A DNA stretch of 64,000 nt from NCBI RefSeq assembly GCF_003597675.1, contig NZ_CP030827.1, positions 1,798,001-1,862,000 on the forward strand, given 5' to 3'. The first letter of the stretch is position 1. The number at the start of each line of letters is the position of its first letter. The DNA is from Neorhizobium sp. NCHU2750. GTDB lineage: Bacteria > Pseudomonadota > Alphaproteobacteria > Rhizobiales > Rhizobiaceae. A model generated the notes under the pieces. It searched no databases. It had not been told where the DNA came from and saw only the letters and a list, made by a program, of their open reading frames with translations. Position numbers and translations under genes: made by a program. Below are positions 23,282-51,509 of the stretch, piece after piece.

Positions 23282-23316
23282 AAAAGCCCGGAGAACGTGA
23301 CGTTCTCCGGGCTTTT
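23282..23316. terminator. gyrA terminator
   Basis: A 16-bp perfect stem (AAAAGCCCGGAGAACG with its complement) around a TGA loop, 94 bases after the gyrA stop, flanked by A and T runs. It is the main feature of the 23188-23543 gap. Confidence 0.88.
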
Positions 23317-41458: not shown

Positions 41459-41472
41459 TGGCGGATGGGGTG
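41459..41472. repeat. attachment repeat, left (attL)
   Basis: TGGCGGATGGGGTG, identical to 51496-51509, the 3' end of tRNA-Ser on the minus strand (CCA, discriminator, acceptor stem). The bases on either side differ between the copies. Confidence 0.82.
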
Positions 41473-41511
41473 TCCGCAGAACCAGCAAGCTCCTGATCGA
41501 AAAATTCAGAT

Positions 41512-41551
41512 TGAAATCATTGAATAATTTTTACATAGCGCAATGATTTCA
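41512..41551. repeat. inverted repeat between attL and the integrase gene
   Basis: Perfect 11-bp arms TGAAATCATTG (41512-41522) and CAATGATTTCA (41541-41551) around an 18-bp AT-rich spacer. The position suits an operator or excisionase/integrase site; the function is inferred. Confidence 0.5.
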
Positions 41552-41604
41552 GCGGCTTAGATAATACCTTACCATTCCTAATGTGTTTCATTGCATCCTT
41601 CCAT

Positions 41605-41656
41605 ATTCCACAAAATCGCGGTATATCCGATGCAATTATGTGGAATGAATGTGGAA
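41605..41656. promoter_or_regulatory. cluster of TGTGGAA sites at the left end (candidate integrase arm sites)
   Basis: TGTGGAA occurs at 41606-41612 (minus), 41639-41645 and 41650-41656, the first two as an ATTCCACA/TGTGGAAT inverted pair. The same word recurs at the right end (51421-51427, with TGTGGAT at 51410). Sites of this kind at both ends fit arm-type integrase binding. Confidence 0.45.
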
Positions 41657-41662
41657 GCGAAC

Positions 41663-42958
41663 ATGGCCGATAAGAGCAAAACCATCAATCGACTGACACC
41701 GAAAGAGATCGACGGCTTCCAGCCAAAGCGAAATGATAAGACCGGGAAGCTAATCCCGAATAAGGTTCATGACGGCGGTGGGCTTTATCTCGTCGTCAGC
41801 CCGCAAGGGAATAAAAGCTTTGTCGTAAGATACACCTATGATGGCAAGCCGCGCGAAGACGGAATTGGAGCATATCGCGATAAGGTCGGAAGCAAGCTGA
41901 CTCTTGGCATTGACCTGAAGGAAGCCCGCAAGACGGCGGAAGAATATCGCGTCCTTATTTCCAAGGGCATAGACCCTCGCGTTGAACTGCGCGGCGAAAA
42001 GCCTTCGACGGGCAACAGTGAAATCGATCAGGCCGAAGAAATCAAAACCTTCCTCGACTGCATGAAAACGGTTCTGGAAAACAAAGACAAGCGCTGGAAG
42101 AACGAGAAACATAGGCAGCAGTGGCATATGACATTGAACGACTACGCAAAGCCGCTGCACGGTCTTTCTGTAGCGACAATAGCTGTTGATGATGTTGAAA
42201 GAACTCTGAAGCCGCATTGGCACGAAAGACCTGAAACCGCAGACAGGCTTCGTTCTCGCATTGCAGCGGTCATCGACTACGCCATCGCCAAGAAATGGCG
42301 CACAACACCCAATCCAGCGACTGCTAAGCTGATCAAAAGCGTCATGCCAGAAAGGACGCATGAGGAAGACGCCGTGGCCTCGATGAAGGCGATGCCGTAT
42401 CTCAATGCCCCCGACTTTTATAAGCGCATATCAGAGGCCAAGGGGAAAGACGCGTTGGCGCTCCGTTTCACAATCCTCAATGCAAGCCGATCCGGCGAAG
42501 TCAGGTTGGCGGCGTGGGAAGAAATCGATTTTGAAAATGCAGTTTGGACGATACCACCGAACAGATTGAAGCGACCCGTCATTATCGAGGGCAGACCTCA
42601 GCCGCACAAAGTTCCTTTGTCAGCTGAAGCCATTGCCGTTCTGCGGATCAGGGAGCAAAGCCGAAAGCTTGAAGACAATGGACTTATATTCCCCGGCAAT
42701 AAGGAAGGTAGGCCGCTTTCCGACATGACACTTACCGCCGTCATGCGGCGTTGGAAGCTGCCGTTTCATGTGCATGGCTTCCGCTCTACCTTCAGAGATT
42801 GGGCGGCAGATAACGGCGCATCGTTTGAACTGGCTGAAAAATGTCTGGGACACGCGGTTGGAGATAGAACATCGAGAGCCTACTTCCGCAGCGATCTCTT
42901 CGACCAGCGTCGGGAGTTGATGGATCGATGGGCAGCTTTTCTCACGAACACAGCCTAA
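41663..42958 (+). CDS. int: tyrosine-type site-specific integrase (P4 family)
   Basis: 431 residues from the ATG at 41663, which follows GGAAG. N-terminal DUF4102-type DNA-binding domain (LTPKEIDGFQP, HDGGGLYLVVSPQGNKSF), then a core-binding and a catalytic domain. Catalytic residues: Arg276 in ASRSGEVR, His371 and Arg374 in HVHGFR, and nucleophile Tyr407 in SRAYFRSD. Integrases of this family commonly insert into tRNA 3' ends, which matches the attL repeat just upstream. The gene lies at the end opposite the intact tRNA. Confidence 0.93.
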   Translation: MADKSKTINRLTPKEIDGFQPKRNDKTGKLIPNKVHDGGGLYLVVSPQGNKSFVVRYTYDGKPREDGIGAYRDKVGSKLTLGIDLKEARKTAEEYRVLISKGIDPRVELRGEKPSTGNSEIDQAEEIKTFLDCMKTVLENKDKRWKNEKHRQQWHMTLNDYAKPLHGLSVATIAVDDVERTLKPHWHERPETADRLRSRIAAVIDYAIAKKWRTTPNPATAKLIKSVMPERTHEEDAVASMKAMPYLNAPDFYKRISEAKGKDALALRFTILNASRSGEVRLAAWEEIDFENAVWTIPPNRLKRPVIIEGRPQPHKVPLSAEAIAVLRIREQSRKLEDNGLIFPGNKEGRPLSDMTLTAVMRRWKLPFHVHGFRSTFRDWAADNGASFELAEKCLGHAVGDRTSRAYFRSDLFDQRRELMDRWAAFLTNTA

Positions 42959-43068
42959 ACATCGATCCAGAGGCAGTAAATGCGTATCTCTGGATAGGTT
43001 GCAAAACGACGAAGACAATCCATGTCGCGCACGATATTCTGGCCGCTCTATTGGCGGGAGGAATGAGT

Positions 43069-43314
43069 ATGTCAGAGGATTGGACTGTCTCCGTGGAATC
43101 GATCACGCGACAAAAGGGGGTCGATTCCCGTGGTGATTTCTACCTTGTTCATTTCAAGGTAGCGAGAGAGCCGTCGTGGCTTATACCAATCCGCGTTCAG
43201 GTTTCGAGCGTGGACGAATTGGATGTAGTGTCTCAGGCTCGAAAATACCTGCATAACCAATTTCAAAAGTTGGCTGATCAAACCAAACCGTGGGGTCAGA
43301 ATAGCGACCCGTAA
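43069..43314 (+). CDS. hypothetical protein next to the integrase
   Basis: 81 residues from the ATG at 43069 (GGGAGGAATGAGT upstream, well spaced). Composition is protein-like, with alternating beta segments (YLVHFKVAREPSWLIPIRVQV) and a C-terminal helix; no family recognised. A longer reading from 42928 would overlap the integrase end by 31 bases. An ORF on the opposite strand (43181-43378) also has a ribosome site and directly follows the resolvase; only one is likely genuine. Confidence 0.5.
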   Translation: MSEDWTVSVESITRQKGVDSRGDFYLVHFKVAREPSWLIPIRVQVSSVDELDVVSQARKYLHNQFQKLADQTKPWGQNSDP

Positions 43315-43388
43315 GAAAAAGAGTTCTATCGAATGGGATGTAGTCGCCCAATTCCAAATCTTGCATCATGATGCGCATTTGCTCTCCA

Positions 43389-44021
43389 CTATAGCCCCCA
43401 CTTCACAAGGGCGCTTTCTGCCGCCTTTGGATCATCCTTGATCCGCAAAACGGTTTGCCGTGATAGCTCCGCTTCCTTGGCTATCTCTGATGTTCCCTTG
43501 CCCATCGCCAGTAGGTCACTGACCAGTGACAGTTGATCGCGATCATAAGACGGTTTTTTACCGCGATACTTAGTTTCGTCGCTCTTGGCGTGAGCAATAC
43601 CGGCCTTCTGCGCTTCTTTGGTCGCCTCCGCCTGCGCCTGTGCTGTCGCGGCCATGAAGGCTATCAGGGCATCCCGTACAGCTTCCTGCATCGGGTCTTT
43701 GGTGCTGCCGTCGAAGGTCATCCCATTTATAACGGTACGGATAATAACGCCCTTCCTCATGAACAGGCGTATCGTATCGGTAACGTCCTGATAATTGCGA
43801 CCCAAGCGGTCCACCCATCGCACAACAAGGGTATCGCCCTTTCGGAGCATGTCGAACAGCCTGCGGCCTTGCGGTCTGTCGGCAAGGCATGTCGACACGC
43901 CAGATTCGCCATGATCGGCAACAACTTCATCAATCACAAAGCCAGCGGCTTCAGCTTGGGTGCGCTGGTGTCCGAGGTTCTGTTCCAACGTGGAAACGCG
44001 GGCGTATAAAATGGTAGTCAT
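43389..44021 (-). CDS. serine recombinase (resolvase/invertase family)
   Basis: 210 residues. The catalytic N-terminal domain contains the nucleophile Ser in YARVSTLEQN (residue 10), VVRWVDRLGRN and the Arg-rich end of the fold; a C-terminal helix-turn-helix is seen around SEIAKEAELSRQTVLRIK. Such enzymes resolve cointegrates or multimers or invert DNA. It is the last gene of the leftward cargo operon and is distinct from the tyrosine integrase. Confidence 0.9.
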   Translation of the reverse strand: MTTILYARVSTLEQNLGHQRTQAEAAGFVIDEVVADHGESGVSTCLADRPQGRRLFDMLRKGDTLVVRWVDRLGRNYQDVTDTIRLFMRKGVIIRTVINGMTFDGSTKDPMQEAVRDALIAFMAATAQAQAEATKEAQKAGIAHAKSDETKYRGKKPSYDRDQLSLVSDLLAMGKGTSEIAKEAELSRQTVLRIKDDPKAAESALVKWGL

Positions 44022-44233
44022 ATCGGCCTCACTGTCCGTTAGGGTGCTGACCGATTATAATGTGACCGTTGATATGAAATCAACCCTTTCGGACAGGCTT
44101 TCGAGAGCTATTTTTGATGTCCGCTGGACTATACCCTTGCGGACAAAGAAAAGCCCGCCGCCCGTATCCGGTCTATTGTCTCCGGGAAAGAGGCGGCGGG
44201 CTTCAGGCCGGAGACAGGGAAACCGGCCTATTC

Positions 44234-44533
44234 CTAAGTTTTAGATTCGGCGTCCTTCGCAACAGCAGCAGTGAGCGCCGCCTTCACCAAATACTCGAAA
44301 AAGCTCTTCGCCTCCTCAACAGTCGTTATCACCGCACGGTGACGCGGCGGAACACCGATCTTAGTGAGATATGCTGCAAGCTCGTCGCTGATCGGCGTAT
44401 CCGAAATGAAAAAGTCGGTGTCCCCGACAAACAATCGAACATCACGCTCCGATTTCAAGACCAGAGTCGGTTTGAGGAAGTCGATAGCCCCCTGATTTTC
44501 AGGGGAAATTACTAGGGCAACGGAGTAGGCCAT
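44234..44533 (-). CDS. hypothetical protein coupled to the terminase-like gene
   Basis: 99 residues from the ATG at 44533, which overlaps the terminase-like stop by one base (TGATG). It opens with a beta strand (MAYSVALVISPENQG), and its C-terminal helix is Ala-rich. No family recognised. Tight coupling suggests a shared role with the packaging-type protein upstream. A 212-bp gap with no clear feature separates it from the resolvase. Confidence 0.6.
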   Translation of the reverse strand: MAYSVALVISPENQGAIDFLKPTLVLKSERDVRLFVGDTDFFISDTPISDELAAYLTKIGVPPRHRAVITTVEEAKSFFEYLVKAALTAAVAKDAESKT

Positions 44534-45036
44534 CACTTATCCTCCTCTTCACTGACTGGTGACATTGGTCTATGGTCAATCGTCAGCGGTTCCTTTTCGG
44601 AGGACTGGCTTTCCAAAATCCCGGCAAGCTGTTCTAATTGATTGATTTCCAATTTCGCAGGATCGACAATCTGAAATGTCACCGCTCCAAACTGCGGGGC
44701 GGGCAAACCAGAAAAATTTGTGTTTTGTTCGATATGCTGGCGCTCGGTGTAATCGTCCCTAAACCGTGCCTGCGCCGACTTTATCCAAAGGTTCGCATTG
44801 AAATTTTTATTGTCCAGATTCTCGCGAGCCATTCGTTCCCAAGCCGCTTGTTCCAAATCCTTCCCCGCGCGTAGCGCTGTCAGAAATTCAGAGTGAGAAT
44901 CGGCCCATTCGTACAATGTCGAGCGAGCAACCCCTAAGTCTGCCGCCCACTCAGCGACGGACATACCTTTGGAGGCCATAGCTAGGACACGTTCGCAGTA
45001 TTCCTCACGATAAAGCGTCGGTCTGCCTGCCGTCAT
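44533..45036 (-). CDS. terminase small subunit-like DNA-binding protein
   Basis: 167 residues. The N-terminus is a helix-turn-helix (GRPTLYREEYCERVLAMAS, WAADLGVARSTLYEW) followed by a helical oligomerisation-type region (WERMARENLDNKNFNANLWIKSAQARFRDDY), the arrangement of phage small terminase subunits that recognise the packaging site. No large subunit exists in the island. Start overlaps the upstream stop by four bases (ATGA). It could also be a plain phage regulator; the ordering beside virion-type genes favours packaging. Confidence 0.68.
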   Translation of the reverse strand: MTAGRPTLYREEYCERVLAMASKGMSVAEWAADLGVARSTLYEWADSHSEFLTALRAGKDLEQAAWERMARENLDNKNFNANLWIKSAQARFRDDYTERQHIEQNTNFSGLPAPQFGAVTFQIVDPAKLEINQLEQLAGILESQSSEKEPLTIDHRPMSPVSEEEDK

Positions 45037-45377
45037 TTGGCAACTTTCCGGGGAATGACCGGTGCATTCCCAATTTGTGATGCGTACACTAGACCCGCTT
45101 CCATTCTCGAAACGAAACCGGCGTCCGTTGCATAAAGGTGGTTGACCTTTTGCCCGGTCTTGCGGCAGCGGAAGTATCGCCGGATTCCGCGCCTCTGCGG
45201 TCTGGTGACGATTTCGAAGATCGTTCGATTATTCCGATATAGGACCGCCACTTCGCGGTCGCTGAGCAGCGAGGCGGTGGCGGTCGTGAAGTCGCCAAAG
45301 TGAACGGCGACCATTTTGGCGTTCCCGTCGAAAAGACCCCCATCGATAAGGGATTTCATTCCAAGGCGGTTAGGCAT
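45033..45377 (-). CDS. phage-island hypothetical, degenerate zinc-ribbon-like
   Basis: 114 residues from the ATG at 45377, overlapping the upstream gene end by eight bases. The C-terminal half (RRYFRCRKTGQKVNHLY, VSRMEAGLVYASQ) resembles small prophage proteins with a Cys-pair zinc ribbon, but here only one Cys remains, so metal binding is doubtful. Function unknown. Confidence 0.55.
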   Translation of the reverse strand: MPNRLGMKSLIDGGLFDGNAKMVAVHFGDFTTATASLLSDREVAVLYRNNRTIFEIVTRPQRRGIRRYFRCRKTGQKVNHLYATDAGFVSRMEAGLVYASQIGNAPVIPRKVAK

Positions 45378-45609
45378 GACCTTCGACTTTCTCGATTCTT
45401 TCAACCATCTGATCGGCGGCACCACTGACTAGAAAAAGGTTGTCGGAAAGGTTGACCAGTTCGCCAAGGAATTTGACGAACTGCGGTTTCGTGACCCCAA
45501 ACGGTGGCTCAAGATTTACGCGGGCGTCTTGAACCGCATCCGACAGTTCGCAGGACAAGGCATAGGTCGCTTTGGCGAGTGCCTTGTATCCATCTGCATT
45601 AAAAACCAT
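45370..45609 (-). CDS. hypothetical island protein
   Basis: 79 residues from the ATG at 45609 with GAGG nine bases upstream. Mostly helical and acidic at the C-terminus (MVERIEKVEG). No family recognised. It is embedded in the overlapping leftward operon of phage-type genes, with eight bases of overlap to the next gene. Confidence 0.55.
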   Translation of the reverse strand: MVFNADGYKALAKATYALSCELSDAVQDARVNLEPPFGVTKPQFVKFLGELVNLSDNLFLVSGAADQMVERIEKVEGHA

Positions 45610-45617
45610 CTGGCACC

Positions 45618-45839
45618 TCACATTTCAGAAATTCGACGGGCGTCTTCCGCGAAGAACCGGAGCGTCTTGGAATACGAAAGAAGAAATTCCATCCAGTTGG
45701 ACTGTTGCGCGGTAGGCACGGCGTCATGCAGATCGAACGTGCGGCGAAGCTCAAGGGCGGTTTCTTCAAACTTTGTCGAGAGATAGGTCAGCCGCGAAGC
45801 AGTATTCCCGATATGGAGTTCATCAAATTCGAGCATCAT
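45618..45839 (-). CDS. hypothetical island protein
   Basis: 73 residues, predicted helical (SRLTYLSTKFEETALELRRTFDL, WMEFLLSYSKTLRFFAEDARRI). The ATG overlaps the stop of the capsid-cement-like gene by four bases. No family recognised. Confidence 0.55.
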   Translation of the reverse strand: MMLEFDELHIGNTASRLTYLSTKFEETALELRRTFDLHDAVPTAQQSNWMEFLLSYSKTLRFFAEDARRISEM

Positions 45840-46207
45840 GCCTTACCCGCCTTCTCAAACAGAACAGGAATCACAATCCCGGCAGCGGCGGCGGGATTGA
45901 TCGCGGTGCCGAGAATGAAATCGCCAGAAGCGGCGGTCACCGCACGGCCTTCATCGTCGGAGGAAATCGGATCGCCAGCAGTAATGACATCGCCTGCGAT
46001 TAGCTTGCTGATGCCGCCAATGGCGATGCAGGACGCCTGATTTAGATTGGGGTCATCTTGGCAGACGCCGATAGCATCGGCCCCGGCTGTCGAGCGGAGG
46101 AAACCGCCTTCGCCGGACGAAATGACGAACCGATATTGCGCAGAAGCGTCGGAATAGTCGGCGGCTGCGATTAGGGTGATCGTGGAGAGACGTTCTTCAT
46201 ACGCCAT
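45836..46207 (-). CDS. capsid cement / DUF2190-like phage head decoration protein
   Basis: 123 residues. The pattern is that of DUF2190-type cement proteins: a beta-rich chain with GVCQDDPNLNQASCIAIGG, then ISKLIAGDVITAGDPISSD, EGRAVTAASGDFILGTAI and a final IVIPVLF strand. These decorate phage capsids. It is normally found beside a major capsid gene, which is absent here. It overlaps its neighbours by one and four bases. Confidence 0.65.
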   Translation of the reverse strand: MAYEERLSTITLIAAADYSDASAQYRFVISSGEGGFLRSTAGADAIGVCQDDPNLNQASCIAIGGISKLIAGDVITAGDPISSDDEGRAVTAASGDFILGTAINPAAAAGIVIPVLFEKAGKA

Positions 46208-46812
46208 TATGCGATCCTCCCGACTAGTTCAGGGTGAAGGGAGTAGGCCTTGCTAAGTGCTTGCTCGCGAGTCAGGGACGGTTGCGACTTGCGAATGTTT
46301 TCGGCGGCAGCTTCAAGCTGTTCTTCCGCGTCATCGCTTTCGGAGTTCACCTTCTTGATTTTCGCAAGGCTCTCGGTGAAGGTTTTGGCTAGTTCGGCCA
46401 TACCTTCGCGGGCTTCCTGAAGGGCTGACTTCGGACTATCGTCCTTACGATTGGCCGGGGTGATGTAGGCCTTCGAGAGGCGGTCAGAATCGAAAGGGGC
46501 AGATTTCGCAACGGTCGCGGCGTCGATGTTGAGAGACTTCGCTACTTCTGCGGCGGTGTAACCCAACGCCTTCATGTAATCGGCGGTCTGTTCCTGATCG
46601 AACGTCAAGGAAAGGGCAACATCTTCCGACTTGATGACGCGCCAACCGTATTCATCGATTCCATCGCGAATGATCGGGGTGATTTCATCGGCAACAAGTT
46701 CGTCGCCAGATTTCATGACATGGAGAAGATCGATGTCTTTTGACAGTACCTTCGAGCAACCCTTGCGGAGTAGAGCGGCGTCACCGCCAGTTCGGGAAAA
46801 TCCATATTTCAA
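46207..46812 (-). CDS. phage structural-type protein with helical C-terminus
   Basis: 201 residues from a TTG at 46812 with AGGA ten bases upstream. The middle has a possible HTH-like stretch (YTAAEVAKSLNIDAATVAKS). The C-terminal half is charged, coiled-coil-like (GMAELAKTFTESLAKIKK, DDAEEQLEAAAENIRKS), and the ending LTREQALSKAYSLHPELVGRIA resembles ends of phage proteins coded near capsid genes. No exact family; scaffold-like or protease-associated roles are guesses. Confidence 0.5.
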   Translation of the reverse strand: MKYGFSRTGGDAALLRKGCSKVLSKDIDLLHVMKSGDELVADEITPIIRDGIDEYGWRVIKSEDVALSLTFDQEQTADYMKALGYTAAEVAKSLNIDAATVAKSAPFDSDRLSKAYITPANRKDDSPKSALQEAREGMAELAKTFTESLAKIKKVNSESDDAEEQLEAAAENIRKSQPSLTREQALSKAYSLHPELVGRIA

Positions 46813-46823
46813 TTTAAAAAGTC

Positions 46824-47000
46824 CTATTCAGAGATAACGTAAAGGATACTGGGATTTTTGACGGTGAGCGCATCATAGGCAGCTTGCGTCAACTTGATGA
46901 TGGCCACGCCAGTAGAGCCATCAGGTAGCTTTTCGCCGGAGGAGACTATGCGACCGCCGTTCCGGTACATCACGGGCCGATAGATTTTTTCAACACCCAT
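46824..47000 (-). CDS. small phage virion-type protein
   Basis: 58 residues from the ATG at 47000. The ending LTQAAYDALTVKNPSILYVISE follows the pattern (Q-Y-DAL-x-x-K-x-P-x-x-LY-x-I) seen in short phage structural proteins and at ends of tail-associated proteins. It starts four bases after the preceding stop. Function inferred only from that motif. Confidence 0.5.
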   Translation of the reverse strand: MGVEKIYRPVMYRNGGRIVSSGEKLPDGSTGVAIIKLTQAAYDALTVKNPSILYVISE

Positions 47001-47004
47001 GAAC

Positions 47005-47316
47005 CTATGCCTTTTTCCAAGCAATCTTGGCTCGCTGGTTGATCAGCAACTTTTCCGGTACACCTGCCCGGACCAGAATGCGAACACCTTCGGCGGCGTC
47101 GGGAGTTTCCGAAACCGAAACCCAAGCATCGGCGGACGCGTCAACGCGCAGTGTCGCATGACCGAATTTGGCGGATGGAACGGGACCGATAAGGCGGCTT
47201 TCGCCGTCTTTCGCGAGCGTCTCGGAATCGATCAGCATCAGTGCATCAGTTTCGGAGGAGACGGAGCCGACGCGGGCGGATTGGAAAAGAGCGAAATGGA
47301 TGCCTTGAAAGGCCAT
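47005..47316 (-). CDS. small phage virion-associated protein (candidate)
   Basis: 103 residues from the ATG at 47316 with AGGA ten bases upstream. Beta-rich chain with KFGHATLRVDASADAWVSV and a closing GVPEKLLINQRAKIAW strand, a pattern seen in small proteins encoded among head genes of tailed phages. First gene of the leftward operon. Family assignment is by pattern only. Confidence 0.5.
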   Translation of the reverse strand: MAFQGIHFALFQSARVGSVSSETDALMLIDSETLAKDGESRLIGPVPSAKFGHATLRVDASADAWVSVSETPDAAEGVRILVRAGVPEKLLINQRAKIAWKKA

Positions 47317-47697
47317 GCTGAAAATCCTGTTTTGAAATGGGAAAGGGAATGCCGGTCGCGAGGTCACAACGCTCCACCGGCACTCGCAACTCACAGAAGG
47401 GAAAGATGCGAGCCATCAAGGCGCTTTGAGGGACACGCCAAGATTAGGAAAGGGTTGCGGGCCGCGTCCAGCACGGAGACTTCGACCGCCCGCACTCAAC
47501 CGTCGCGGTATGTCCGCCGCGCAGTAGGCTGAGCCGTCCACGCTCAGGCAAGCTGTGCGCAGGTTCATGAAACTTTGGGAGAGATTAGGGAGCGAGAATC
47601 GCTCAATCTATGAGAATAACAATACATGACTTTATGAACAATGTCAATAATAAATTTACTGAAAGAGCATTGTTTTTCATTAATTTTATGTAATGTC
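47317..47697. other. leader region of the virion-type operon
   Basis: A GC-rich stretch (about 47440-47560) has a CTGAGC/GCTCAG hairpin (47529-47534 with 47542-47547), then the sequence turns strongly AT-rich from 47560, with a GAGCGA/TCGCTC hairpin at 47590-47604. It contains no gene. It probably holds the promoter of the leftward operon and the AT-rich part of the origin region described next. Confidence 0.4.
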
Positions 47698-47823
47698 TAC
47701 GAGTAGTACGAGTAGTTACGAGTAATAAATCAACTACCTCTGAGACTCATTTTCCTATTATGATCATTTTTTCATTCTCTGAAGCGACCTGTTTATTACT
47801 CGTAACTACTCGTACTACTCGTA
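47698..47823. repeat. 32-bp perfect inverted repeat of TACGAGTA iterons, candidate replication origin
   Basis: Arms 47698-47729 and 47792-47823 are exact reverse complements around a 62-bp AT-rich spacer. Each arm has three copies of TACGAGTA (starts 47698, 47707, 47717) mirrored as TACTCGTA (47797, 47807, 47816). It lies 56 bp past the primase/helicase stop. Iterons beside a replication gene fit an origin; a very strong terminator is the alternative. Confidence 0.7.
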
Positions 47824-47878
47824 AAATGGAAAAGGGCGACATTTCTGCCGCCCCTTAGATAAAATCAAGTTTCGATTG

Positions 47879-50149
47879 TCATGCCGCGATGGGTTCTGTG
47901 TTTAGAGACTTCAGTTTCCAAACATTGACGTGCTTGTCGCTGTCATATTCAGAAATTAATTTGAGCCCATCGACGATTGCATTTTGTTTTTTGCTAAGGG
48001 CTTTGCCGAGGCTGATTTTTGAAAGCTGATCGCGGCTATTGCTCCCGAATGCGTTAAGGGCATCGCGAAAACGCTCGTTCCGATCATACGCCGCTAGGGC
48101 CTCGCCTATTAAGTCGTTCCTCTCTAGGCGGAAATCGTTAGTCCAGCGCTCCATGAGATCAGCAGAACGGAGACCAACCGTTTCTTTGCCGCAGGGAGCG
48201 CCCTCGCATTCCCACCACGCCGAAACGAACGCTCTAAAGATATTCAGCTTATCGTCACTCTTGCGAGCAACCTCCATTGACTTCAGCGGGTCGTCTTCCC
48301 CAAGCCAGACGAGTGAGGAACGAATATTATCGGACCACTCGCCGAAGCTTCCGAGTGGATCGAGCTTGCCGGGACGGCCAGCGAGAATGTAGGCGCGAAC
48401 AATTGTGAGAATAGCTGCGACGTAACCCGGGCGATCCGCCATGACCATCTTCAAAGGGTTGCTATCGAATTTCCGCTGTTCCGGCTTTTCCGAATTCGGA
48501 TCGAGCGAGATCAAGAGCGCCCGTCGCACCATGTCGCCCGAAACGGTGATACCAATACCCGTGGCAGCGAGCGCGGTCTTGTTTCGGATGATATGTTGAT
48601 CACTGGACCCAAGACGCCGAAGTGTTAGCAGTGGCCGCTCGACTGCCTGACACAAGAATTCTCCACTCAATTCCCCGTTCACGTTGTCGATGACCTGGAA
48701 TTGAGCGCCCTCAAGCAACGGTCCCGCCAGCCGCTTTTCAAGCTCTTCACTTGACCAGCCAGCCGCCGTAACAGGTGCGCGCTCGCCCGACATAATCGCG
48801 GCGGTAATATCAGCGTGGAAACTCTTCCCTGAACCCGCTGCCGGTGCGTTTATTACGTGTATCGGTGCAACCTCCATCGTCGGGCGCAGAACTGGCGTCA
48901 TTAGTAGAGATAGCCCTGCTGACCGAGAACCGTCACCGACATAATCGAACCCCGTCAAGAGAGCCTTTAGCTTCTCTAATGCGGCGATTGCATCGGCCTT
49001 GGACGGCGTTGCGGGCATGTCCGCAGGCAGTTCTAGCGGATCGACTACGAGCAGTCCTGTAGCATCGTCAAAGCCTGCCTTATCCAGAATGCTGCCGTCC
49101 TGCCGTAGCGTCGGGCAGCTAATGACGCCCGCAAGCGTTGGCAGCTTGGCGTCACGGCCGGGGGCAAGCAAGGCCGCAGCGACACGATGCGGCGGATCGG
49201 TTGGCAGATATTGCGTGACAAATTGCTCGCTACCGTCTTCGCCAACCTTTTTGACGCGCTTAGCTTTCTTGAAGACGATGAAGCGCCCCATCGTCTCCAT
49301 GAGGGAGATAGCATCCAGTGCCATCATTCGCACCGATGTCGTTTTCCCATTGTGCGCCGCAGGTAATTCGCTGCGAACAGCGCGCACAAGGCTATTGCCG
49401 CGCACATATACCCCTGACAAGCGATCACGAAGCTCGCGCTCGCTCTTGTCGATCATTTCAATTAAATTGCCATCTGCCACGATCAGAGGCGACCATTTTG
49501 GAGTTGCAGCAATGATCTTCCGCAGCTTGTGTGCGATCTCTTTTGACGAGTGCCCACGCGACGACTGATCGGCGATCCAATCCCGAACGTCTCCCTTGTT
49601 CGGGAGATTAGGTAGGCGGATGATGCGAACTGAAGATGCGCGACCGTAAAGCGCTTTCGCGGCGTTAAGGCAGTGTTTCACGCCGCTTTCGTCCTCGTCC
49701 TGCATAAGCGCGACCGGACGGCCTTCAAGAGCTTCAGTGTATCGCTCTTGCCATTTACCTGCACCGTCATAATTCGTCGTCGAGACAAAGCCGAGGTTCC
49801 TCGTCGCCTTAGCGTCTCCCTCGCCCTCGCAAATGAGAATTACCTCATCCGTATCAGCCGCTTCGATATCCGGCTGATTGTAAAGGGGAACATCAGGGCG
49901 TTCACCTAGATCAGGATTGGCGTCCCACTGCCTCACCGTGAAATCTTGCTGCTGAAGGTTGAACAGTTGCCGATCAGAATTACCGAGCGGGTTTTGGTAA
50001 TATGTTCGGAAGGTCTTGTCGGAGGGATTGTCCTTATTCCGATACTTCACCTTGCGAATGATTTTTCCGTACTCACTATAGTACGACTCTACCTCACTAA
50101 AGTTCTCAAGCGAGGATTCGATCAATTCATAATCGAGGTTATTCGACAT
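47879..50149 (-). CDS. Toprim primase / AAA-type helicase, replication protein
   Basis: 756 residues. N-terminal third: Toprim domain with ILICEGEGDAKA, the DEDESG acidic pair and KGDVRDWIADQ. Middle and C-terminal: an ATPase with Walker A NAPAAGSGKSFHADI and Walker B VIDNVN, followed by an Arg-rich sensor region (SGDMVRRALLISL). The layout resembles satellite and plasmid primase-helicases. No zinc-binding CHC2 start is seen. It probably starts replication at the adjacent iteron repeat. It lies downstream of the AlpA-like gene. Confidence 0.85.
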   Translation of the reverse strand: MSNNLDYELIESSLENFSEVESYYSEYGKIIRKVKYRNKDNPSDKTFRTYYQNPLGNSDRQLFNLQQQDFTVRQWDANPDLGERPDVPLYNQPDIEAADTDEVILICEGEGDAKATRNLGFVSTTNYDGAGKWQERYTEALEGRPVALMQDEDESGVKHCLNAAKALYGRASSVRIIRLPNLPNKGDVRDWIADQSSRGHSSKEIAHKLRKIIAATPKWSPLIVADGNLIEMIDKSERELRDRLSGVYVRGNSLVRAVRSELPAAHNGKTTSVRMMALDAISLMETMGRFIVFKKAKRVKKVGEDGSEQFVTQYLPTDPPHRVAAALLAPGRDAKLPTLAGVISCPTLRQDGSILDKAGFDDATGLLVVDPLELPADMPATPSKADAIAALEKLKALLTGFDYVGDGSRSAGLSLLMTPVLRPTMEVAPIHVINAPAAGSGKSFHADITAAIMSGERAPVTAAGWSSEELEKRLAGPLLEGAQFQVIDNVNGELSGEFLCQAVERPLLTLRRLGSSDQHIIRNKTALAATGIGITVSGDMVRRALLISLDPNSEKPEQRKFDSNPLKMVMADRPGYVAAILTIVRAYILAGRPGKLDPLGSFGEWSDNIRSSLVWLGEDDPLKSMEVARKSDDKLNIFRAFVSAWWECEGAPCGKETVGLRSADLMERWTNDFRLERNDLIGEALAAYDRNERFRDALNAFGSNSRDQLSKISLGKALSKKQNAIVDGLKLISEYDSDKHVNVWKLKSLNTEPIAA

Positions 50150-50236
50150 TATATTTTGCTTGCCTTATAAAGATGCAGCCACAACCCCTTGCTTTCGAAG
50201 CAAAAGTCTGTTATCGTACTGCCGTTGAATAAATAT

Positions 50237-50276
50237 TGCGCCCACGGTTGCCGCCGTATCGGGCGCATTTTTTTTT
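50237..50276 (+). terminator. hairpin with T run on the plus strand between the AlpA-like and primase genes
   Basis: Stem TGCGCCC (50237-50243) / GGGCGCA (50261-50267), with an inner ACGG/CCGT pairing, followed by nine T. As both neighbouring genes run the other way, it may end a short plus-strand RNA starting near 50213, or act on the minus strand as an AlpA-gene hairpin with a poor T run. Confidence 0.6.
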
Positions 50277-50284
50277 GCTAAGAG

Positions 50285-50500
50285 TTAAGCGGCCAAGGCC
50301 CGCTGCTCCCGATCAGCAATGAAGCGCTCCAACGTCCCCTGACGAATGAAGTTCTGCTTCCCTATTTTAAACATCCGGGGAAGCTCGCCCTGCGCCTGAA
50401 GACGATAAACCGATGACCTCGCCAGACCGAAACGGGCTGCTACGTCATCGAGCGAGAGGAGTGTGTGGGGATTTAGCCCCGTTAGTTCAGTTGATTGCAT
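50285..50500 (-). CDS. AlpA family helix-turn-helix regulator / excisionase-like protein
   Basis: 71 residues from the ATG at 50500 with AAGG upstream. A winged-helix MerR/AlpA-like fold is seen: LSLDDVAARFGLARSSVYRLQAQGELPRMFKIGKQNFIR (parts shown). AlpA-type proteins activate excision or the integrase in P4-type islands. It lies at the start of the replication block. Confidence 0.82.
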   Translation of the reverse strand: MQSTELTGLNPHTLLSLDDVAARFGLARSSVYRLQAQGELPRMFKIGKQNFIRQGTLERFIADREQRALAA

Positions 50501-50703
50501 TTCTTGACCTTCATAAAAATAATCACGGACCACCCGAGATTTTCTTTTTGACCGCTTGACGGATGCTCGTTTCCATGTTTTAAAAGTACATAGATCGCCA
50601 AGGGGCGTAATGTATCTGTATAAATCAGAATAATACGCAACCCTCTATAAGACTGACTTTCACCGAATCTGCAAGCAAAAAATTCTTATATTACGTAATT
50701 GTA

Positions 50704-51393
50704 ATGTTTGAGGCATCTAATCGCGCAACCTATCACGTGGGTCTGGCGATGAGAAAATCGAACGAGAACAAACTTCCCGTACTCAAATGGTCGTTGACCG
50801 CCATCGCGGCTTGTATGGGCGCTGTCCTACTGCTCCGGTGGCTCTGCTTCAGTTGGGAAGCCGTCAGCGCGGTAGGTGGTCTGTCTTCGGGAGTATTTGC
50901 CGCTCTTGCCTTCGTGATGGCTCTAAAGGCGGTTTCTGACAACCAACAGTCGATCCGGGAGCAGCAGAGAGAGTTGAAGAAGCAGCGAGAGGCACGCGAA
51001 CAAGCGGATTGGGATGAATTGTTGCGCCTAAGGCTTATCGCGTTTCGGGAATTCTGCTTCCGCACCTTTTGGAATAGCAACAAGTTTGCTGACGAGCAAA
51101 CACACACATTGCTTGAGAAGATGCCAGCAGACCCTAACAATTATTTCTGGCGAGTTTGCAGGGAGATAACGAATAACAGGGGGAACCCTGATTTTGATTG
51201 GTTATTCGGTTTTGGTGAAGCCAAAGTGGACGCAATGAGGGAGGATGTCGCTGAGTTTCGAACGCGGCTCGCTACGATTGCCGACCACAAGCATCACTCA
51301 TCGCCTGCGATTCGGGCATTCCTAGCCGACGCAAAAATTGATCAGGTGCTCGAATTGCTGGAAATAGCCGCCGCTGCTGTCTATCGCCCGTAA
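50704..51393 (+). CDS. membrane-anchored coiled-coil protein, cargo of unknown function
   Basis: 229 residues. Two hydrophobic segments (WSLTAIAACMGAVLLLRWL, and GGLSSGVFAALAFVMALKA) are followed by a charged coiled-coil (IREQQRELKKQREAREQADW) and a helical cytoplasmic part. No family recognised. It is the only plus-strand cargo gene and sits at the right edge, a usual place for defence or fitness genes in satellites. Start is uncertain (50704 or 50749). Confidence 0.65.
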   Translation: MFEASNRATYHVGLAMRKSNENKLPVLKWSLTAIAACMGAVLLLRWLCFSWEAVSAVGGLSSGVFAALAFVMALKAVSDNQQSIREQQRELKKQREAREQADWDELLRLRLIAFREFCFRTFWNSNKFADEQTHTLLEKMPADPNNYFWRVCREITNNRGNPDFDWLFGFGEAKVDAMREDVAEFRTRLATIADHKHHSSPAIRAFLADAKIDQVLELLEIAAAAVYRP

Positions 51394-51423
51394 ATTCGCC
51401 CAATGACCTTGTGGATTTTATGT

Positions 51424-51455
51424 GGAAAGAAAATCGACTTCGGAAAGAAAAATCG
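51424..51455. repeat. GGAAAGAAAA(A)TCG direct repeat at the right end
   Basis: Two near-identical copies, 51424-51436 and 51442-51455, 40 bp inside attR and overlapping the TGTGGAA site. They may be part of the integrase or excision binding area. Confidence 0.4.
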
Positions 51456-51495
51456 GCTTTTATTCAATAAAAACAATTCCAATAATCTAAATGGT

Positions 51496-51509
51496 TGGCG
51501 GATGGGGTG
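51496..51509. repeat. attachment repeat, right (attR), within tRNA-Ser
   Basis: TGGCGGATGGGGTG, the partner of attL at 41459; on the minus strand this is the tRNA-Ser 3' end. Confidence 0.82.

Follow-up and report, generated by a model that had tools for sequence, protein, structure and literature searches.

The origin region of the E. coli CFT073 PICI, as tested by its authors, lies 3' of the rep gene, and the same position is described for the tested origin region of the archaeal plasmid pRN1 (PMC4234260). According to the pRN1 account, a stem-loop with 21-nt arms and a 58-nt loop stands 54 bp past the stop of the primase/SF3-helicase gene, with a putative small terminator between gene and stem-loop; the stem-loop is required and relocatable, and its integrity is needed (PMC4234260). 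Its authors describe it as being without iteron structure. The same source assigns the P4 alpha primase to the TOPRIM type (PMC4234260). According to PMC7581432, three short iterons lie downstream of the gene of SCCmec Cch2, a helicase of the D5 family, and the protein binds them as dsDNA through its C-terminal domain.

Here we describe a perfect inverted repeat in a 64-kb stretch of Neorhizobium sp. NCHU2750 DNA (hereafter the window). We consider it very probable, on the strength of sequence comparisons, that this repeat is the replication origin of a ~10-kb phage-satellite island at a tRNA-Ser gene, and that it is bound by the island's own primase-helicase, with two helicases loading inward. 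The coordinates of the relevant features are collected in Table 1. The size of the element follows from the 14-bp repeat in the 3' end of tRNA-Ser, which recurs next to the integrase. A comparison of a query joining the island's flanks with 40 genus genomes (own included) revealed no empty attachment site: its tRNA side matched in all, while its far left part matched the own genome only, among the matches listed.

The PICI hallmarks integrase, att repeats, AlpA-type regulator, pri-rep and terS are present in the island, AlpA and TerS by profile matches. PICIs lack most phage structural and lysis genes, and some encode capsid morphogenesis genes. In the part of the ORFs that was scanned, one scaffolding/decoration-like gene and TerS were found, with no other structural gene. 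Together with a colinear relative described below, the island seems to make up a PICI-like satellite family. Neither PHROGs nor PADLOC gave an informative family for the 229-aa protein (50704-51393) that is encoded between the AlpA-like gene and the tRNA; a PADLOC run on 8 small proteins gave one weak match.

Table 1. Features of the island and of its candidate origin (positions are those of the window).
Feature	Position	Strand	Remarks
Attachment repeat TGGCGGATGGGGTG, int-side island end	41459..41472	+	
Tyrosine integrase of the island	41591..42958	+	
Serine resolvase/invertase	43389..44021	-	
Terminase small subunit-like protein, satellite packaging gene	44533..45036	-	Profile match phrog_309
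Head scaffolding/decoration-like protein	45836..46207	-	
AT-rich tract beyond distal arm	47580..47697	.	118 bp, 71% AT; may be an additional unwinding element or a promoter region
Gene-distal arm	47698..47729	+	Three TACGAGTA iterons at 47698, 47707, 47717
Spacer	47730..47791	.	62 bp, 63% AT; proposed melting region
Gene-proximal arm	47792..47823	-	Three TACGAGTA iterons at 47797, 47807, 47816
Terminator-like hairpin, primase stop/repeat interval	47831..47856	-	11-pair stem, 4-nt loop, T-rich tail
Primase-helicase, 756 aa, proposed initiator	47879..50149	-	TOPRIM core ~1-220; D5/SF3 helicase and C-terminal domain ~220-753
AlpA-like HTH regulator/excisionase, upstream of primase	50285..50533	-	Profile match
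Attachment repeat in 3' end of tRNA-Ser, other island end	51496..51509	+	

Over all 32 nt, each arm of the repeat is the exact reverse complement of the other, with 62 nt between them, and within each arm the TACGAGTA iterons follow one another at steps of 9 and 10 bp. The arms hold all six copies of TACGAGTA found in the window, against 0.19 expected. A whole-genome search for TACGAGTAGTACGAGTA, a 17-mer, that tolerated up to 3 mismatches recovered both arms and a single further site, which had 3 mismatches. In 20 Markov-shuffled versions of the window, perfect arms within 300 bp reached at most 15 nt; the second-longest perfect inverted repeat of the window itself measures 17 nt (23282-23316). 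Both the spacer and the tract beyond the distal arm are richer in AT than the island, which averages 48%. Direct inspection of the sequence thus bore out what an earlier, sequence-only reading had reported, namely perfect 32-bp arms built from six iterons around a 62-bp spacer, no further copy of the unit in the island, and AT enrichment of both the spacer and the neighbouring tract. That reading was also right in placing the repeat beside the primase gene, except that the gap between stop and repeat is 55 bp rather than the 56 bp it gave.

Modelling gave the 756-aa protein a TOPRIM primase part joined to a D5/SF3 helicase. Its initial description as a P4-type primase holds at the level of this predicted fold, though not at that of sequence. 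Two kinds of putative transcription signal flank the repeat. The terminator-like hairpin between gene and repeat has the longest stem among the 4 terminator-like sites found in the region, a count not above that of shuffles (mean 4.3). Among the 8 representative loci (see below) whose repeat begins at least 25 bp past the stop, an intervening hairpin was present in 3 (the window, L060 and L174) and in none of the other 5. On the minus strand of the AT-rich tract, at 47647-47619 and directed towards the packaging genes, lies a promoter-like match (TTGACA, 17, TATTGT; 10 of 12); in 4 kb, 5 such sites were found compared to 3.3 in shuffles. Because of this site, the tract may be a promoter rather than part of the origin.

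Conservation of the repeat in homologous islands had been proposed as a check on the initial reading, and a relative island in genome G399 allowed a direct comparison; its primase and that of Rhizobium sp. RU20A are 100% identical. The island occupies the same tRNA-Ser with the same 14-bp att, and the gene order is colinear, at identities of 74% for the integrase, 61% for TerS, 52% for the scaffold, 54% for the primase and 64% for AlpA. The relative also carries an inverted repeat, with 32-nt arms (97%) and a spacer of 73, beginning 30 bp past the primase stop. An ungapped comparison of its arm with that of the window found agreement at 14/31 positions, which is chance level (206 of 2000 shuffles). 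The CGAG cores are the exception, standing at 4, 12 and 22 in the relative and at 3, 12 and 22 in the window; the other arm of the relative has lost its first core. Since an inverted repeat of the same arm length stands in the same place at chance-level arm identity, the letters of the arm have changed while the layout stayed. Conservation between the colinear islands is therefore one of layout, with letters mostly different. The two islands (41459-51509 of the window and L165 2621-12288) come from two genera of one family; literature searches found no publication, by title, on either of them, and a search on Alphaproteobacteria phage satellites with AlpA, primase and replication origin found no paper.

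We also surveyed relatives of the helicase. The 132 loci with a readable stop formed 83 clusters at 80% aa, several loci being the window or its relative fetched repeatedly. The scan of each began 40 bp ahead of the stop and ended 400 bp past it, and a score of at least 14 near the stop was called positive. A scored repeat was present in 39 of 60 close helicase relatives (window and colinear relative included), compared to 3/1028 control windows elsewhere in the loci of these close relatives; it was also present in 4/13 distant relatives and in 1/10 loci sharing only the TOPRIM part. Under a first, slightly different scoring of 118 loci, 236 Markov shuffles never rose above 12.5. The scored repeat was absent from 21/60 close and 9/13 distant representatives and from all five readable loci of a fresh, class-wide and more distant set, the sixth of which had no downstream sequence. 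For this reason, either the inverted repeat belongs to a subfamily or degenerate forms of it escape the scan.

The 39 repeat-bearing representatives, the window among them, have several properties in common. Arm self-identity at 9 bp averaged 0.66, compared to 0.36 after shuffling, and 9 was the best self-match lag in 28 of the 39. Read towards the spacer, the gene-proximal arm had more G than C in 38/39. The spacer (median length 70) was richer in AT than the gene in all 39 (mean 0.51 vs 0.37). Over the 100 bp beyond the repeat, mean AT across the 39 was only 0.41, indicating that the far AT tract of the window is not a family trait. An iteron-only scan, which is blind to the pairing of arms, gave scores of at least 4 in 45/60 close relatives vs 5/164 controls, and of at least 5 in 33/60 vs 0/164. 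At the lower threshold it was positive in 4/13 distant relatives and 2/9 TOPRIM-only loci; a score of 5 was likewise reached by 2/9 TOPRIM-only loci, which counts against the origin reading.

Two small plasmids carry an inverted repeat of the window kind. In the Psychrobacter plasmid pA32H2 (6547 bp), a distant relative of the 756-aa protein is the only ORF above 170 aa, and no other exceeds 167 aa, although the four-gene annotation table of this plasmid may be incomplete. Inverted triplets of GGTAGGGATA begin at base 99 after the stop and form the only inverted repeat scored there. In the second plasmid, pMNOD06 (12.6 kb), the repeat starts at base 9 and is the stronger of two found there. 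With respect to other replicons, a perfect 31-nt pair at base 17 was found in AZO_p2, a prophage-like stretch of a large plasmid, an imperfect 35-nt pair in pMt-1, and a 16-nt pair in pA17P3, which also has repM; a Legionella adelaidensis plasmid relative had no inverted repeat, and BPP-1 had one of only 9 bp. As side observations, pA32H2 (L175 6370-6524) looks like a small natural replicon of this kind, on which a literature search found no paper, and the serine resolvase of the island is 70% identical to the recombinase of pMNOD06, the plasmid that also has such a helicase and inverted repeat. Searches by DNA sequence were less productive. The exact 17-mer TACGAGTAGTACGAGTA had 18 genome and 8 viral matches, where by our own estimate chance would give ~30 in the genome collection, and the mirrored arrangement occurred in 0/26 of the matched loci. 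The stretch 47600-47900 had no DNA match among plasmids, and P0003 none in viral contigs.

How does this locus compare with the described origins? As in PICIs and SaPIs, the candidate origin lies directly 3' of the pri-rep gene, 55 bp past its stop, consists of closely spaced iterons (three plus three, with an AT-rich spacer), and adjoins the gene of a proposed initiator that is predicted to be a D5/SF3-type helicase. In the CFT073 island, which we take for EcCICFT073 because capsid and head decoration genes follow the primase, as published, a search allowing 1 mismatch found ten TGTCTACC-type iterons on the 3' side of a D5-type primase (D5_N match), five per orientation and with neighbours often 9 or 11 bp apart. 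These ten are spread over several blocks, in contrast to the three plus three of the window, which form one perfect palindrome, and the iteron sequences of the two are unrelated. The SaPIbov1 and SaPI5 primases are described as AEP-type (PMC7581432), whereas that of the window is TOPRIM-type. The arrangement reported for SCCmec Cch2 resembles that of the window, with the difference that it comprises one direct-repeat triplet and a separate primase-polymerase (PMC7581432), instead of two mirrored triplets. Judged by these comparisons, the repeat is a compact, perfectly mirrored variant of the PICI/SaPI kind of iteron origin.

The likeness extends to P4 and pRN1. The P4 record annotates crr immediately 3' of alpha and marks a terminator between the two; crr carries 8-bp type-1 repeats that run in both orientations, 9 bp separating the first pair. 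The combination of a TOPRIM primase with a D5/SF3 helicase recurs in the window by predicted fold. P4 replication needs both crr and ori. These are two separate cis sites, whereas the iteron of the window occurs in one inverted repeat only; moreover, crr consists of two 120-bp direct repeats, and the repeat sequence differs. pRN1 shares with the window a large inverted repeat 3' of the replication gene, yet its protein begins with an AEP prim-pol domain that the window protein lacks. Each pRN1 arm contains two GTCC units 9 bp apart, compared to three units per arm in the window. Across five pRN plasmids, the pooled arm self-match was best at 9 bp (0.48), a value as high being reached at that lag in 0/5000 shuffles and at any lag of 7-12 in 5/5000; without pHEN7, the respective counts were 9 and 61 of 5000. 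pSSVx alone showed almost no 9-bp self-match.

A site of this kind could serve purposes other than initiation, or be recognised in another way. As proposed for pRN1, the protein might recognise a stem-loop (cruciform or hairpin) instead of iterons. The perfect 32-bp pairing, a DNA fold z of -9, an RNA fold z of -12, computed on a stretch that includes the terminator-like hairpin as well, and the reported need for stem-loop integrity in pRN1 (PMC4234260) are consistent with a structural origin. Identity between arms also exceeds that between units within an arm in 32/39 loci, a comparison biased by locus selection, which leaves room for a cruciform role. The 9-bp repeated units within the arms speak for iterons, as do loci such as L009 and L012, where inverted units stand without a good hairpin, and we regard purely structural recognition as unlikely. 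The stability of the predicted RNA fold could also mean that the repeat is a transcription terminator or an RNA hairpin of the primase transcript, a role we find hardly credible: its 62-nt loop does not fit the short-loop GC stem and T run of an intrinsic terminator, the scan calling the T-tailed hairpin ahead of the repeat instead, and repeated units fill its arms. With that separate terminator-like site between gene and repeat, the idea that primase transcripts end in the repeat is weakened, and the P4 record likewise places a terminator between alpha and crr.

The island encodes a resolvase and a TerS-like protein, so that the repeat might be a recombination or packaging site (res for the serine resolvase, or pac/cos for TerS). 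This is very improbable, as many loci have the repeat after the helicase gene, and as it is found on pA32H2, where neither resolvase nor TerS is annotated in the possibly incomplete gene table and the other ORFs are small. That the repeat acts mainly in control of the primase or of the packaging genes downstream of it, as an operator or copy-number site, also appears improbable, if less so. Plasmid iterons often also serve in control, and a promoter-like site lies beyond the distal arm; against this role, the repeat stands 3' of its gene, and the elements that carry it differ in the genes that follow. That the repeat is an origin used by the neighbouring, predicted primase-helicase, as the sequence-only reading had proposed, is supported by its position, its unit structure and the comparative evidence. 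We favor the origin because the layout is kept while the letters change, because 39 of 60 close relatives and two small plasmids have such a repeat, and because the CFT073 PICI and pRN1 origins lie 3' of rep genes and contain inverted units set close together.

At such an origin, the 756-aa primase-helicase would bind the TACGAGTA iterons in double-stranded form, each arm offering three of them at intervals of about one turn. Since the two triplets are mirror images, two helicase hexamers would load face to face on either side of the AT-rich spacer and open it, and the two forks that arise would lead to bidirectional replication. The TOPRIM domain would prime and a host polymerase extend, and the terminator-like hairpin, if it works as such, would stop the primase transcript from running into the origin. 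Sites that come as a mirrored pair would lend themselves to head-to-head helicase loading, which is a general question of replication initiation.

For the satellite family, which we found in two genomes, both from the bacterial family to which Rhizobium sp. RU20A belongs, the repeat provides a precise candidate origin. It also suggests that the geometry of origins persists longer than their sequence in this branch of D5/SF3 replicons. For pRN1-like plasmids, it hints at a single answer to the question of hairpin or iteron. Tentatively, and with somewhat more doubt than confidence, we propose that bacterial satellite iteron origins and archaeal pRN stem-loop origins may be of one kind: mirrored initiator sites spaced ~9 bp apart, just 3' of a D5/SF3 primase-helicase gene, that load two helicases head to head. 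Geometry and polarity would be kept while the site sequence is repeatedly replaced, giving replication compatibility groups among satellites. A point against the origin reading is that co-variation of iteron and protein was weak over 35 loci (overall 0.32) and fell on the AAA+ part instead of the C-terminal domain; with four domains tested, partial co-variation was 0.18 for AAA+ (4/500 permutations) and 0.02 for the C-terminal domain (208/500).

In some loci, such as L147, L154, L107, L126, L160 and L172, another mirrored motif, AAACTGTCAG..TGACAGTTT, stands beside differing iterons, in most cases within the spacer. Counted as ACTGTCA..TGACAGT, this motif is absent from the window, a further point against the origin reading, and does not clearly track primase type; within 230 bp of the stop it was found in 23/60 close relatives, compared to 7/573 gene windows.
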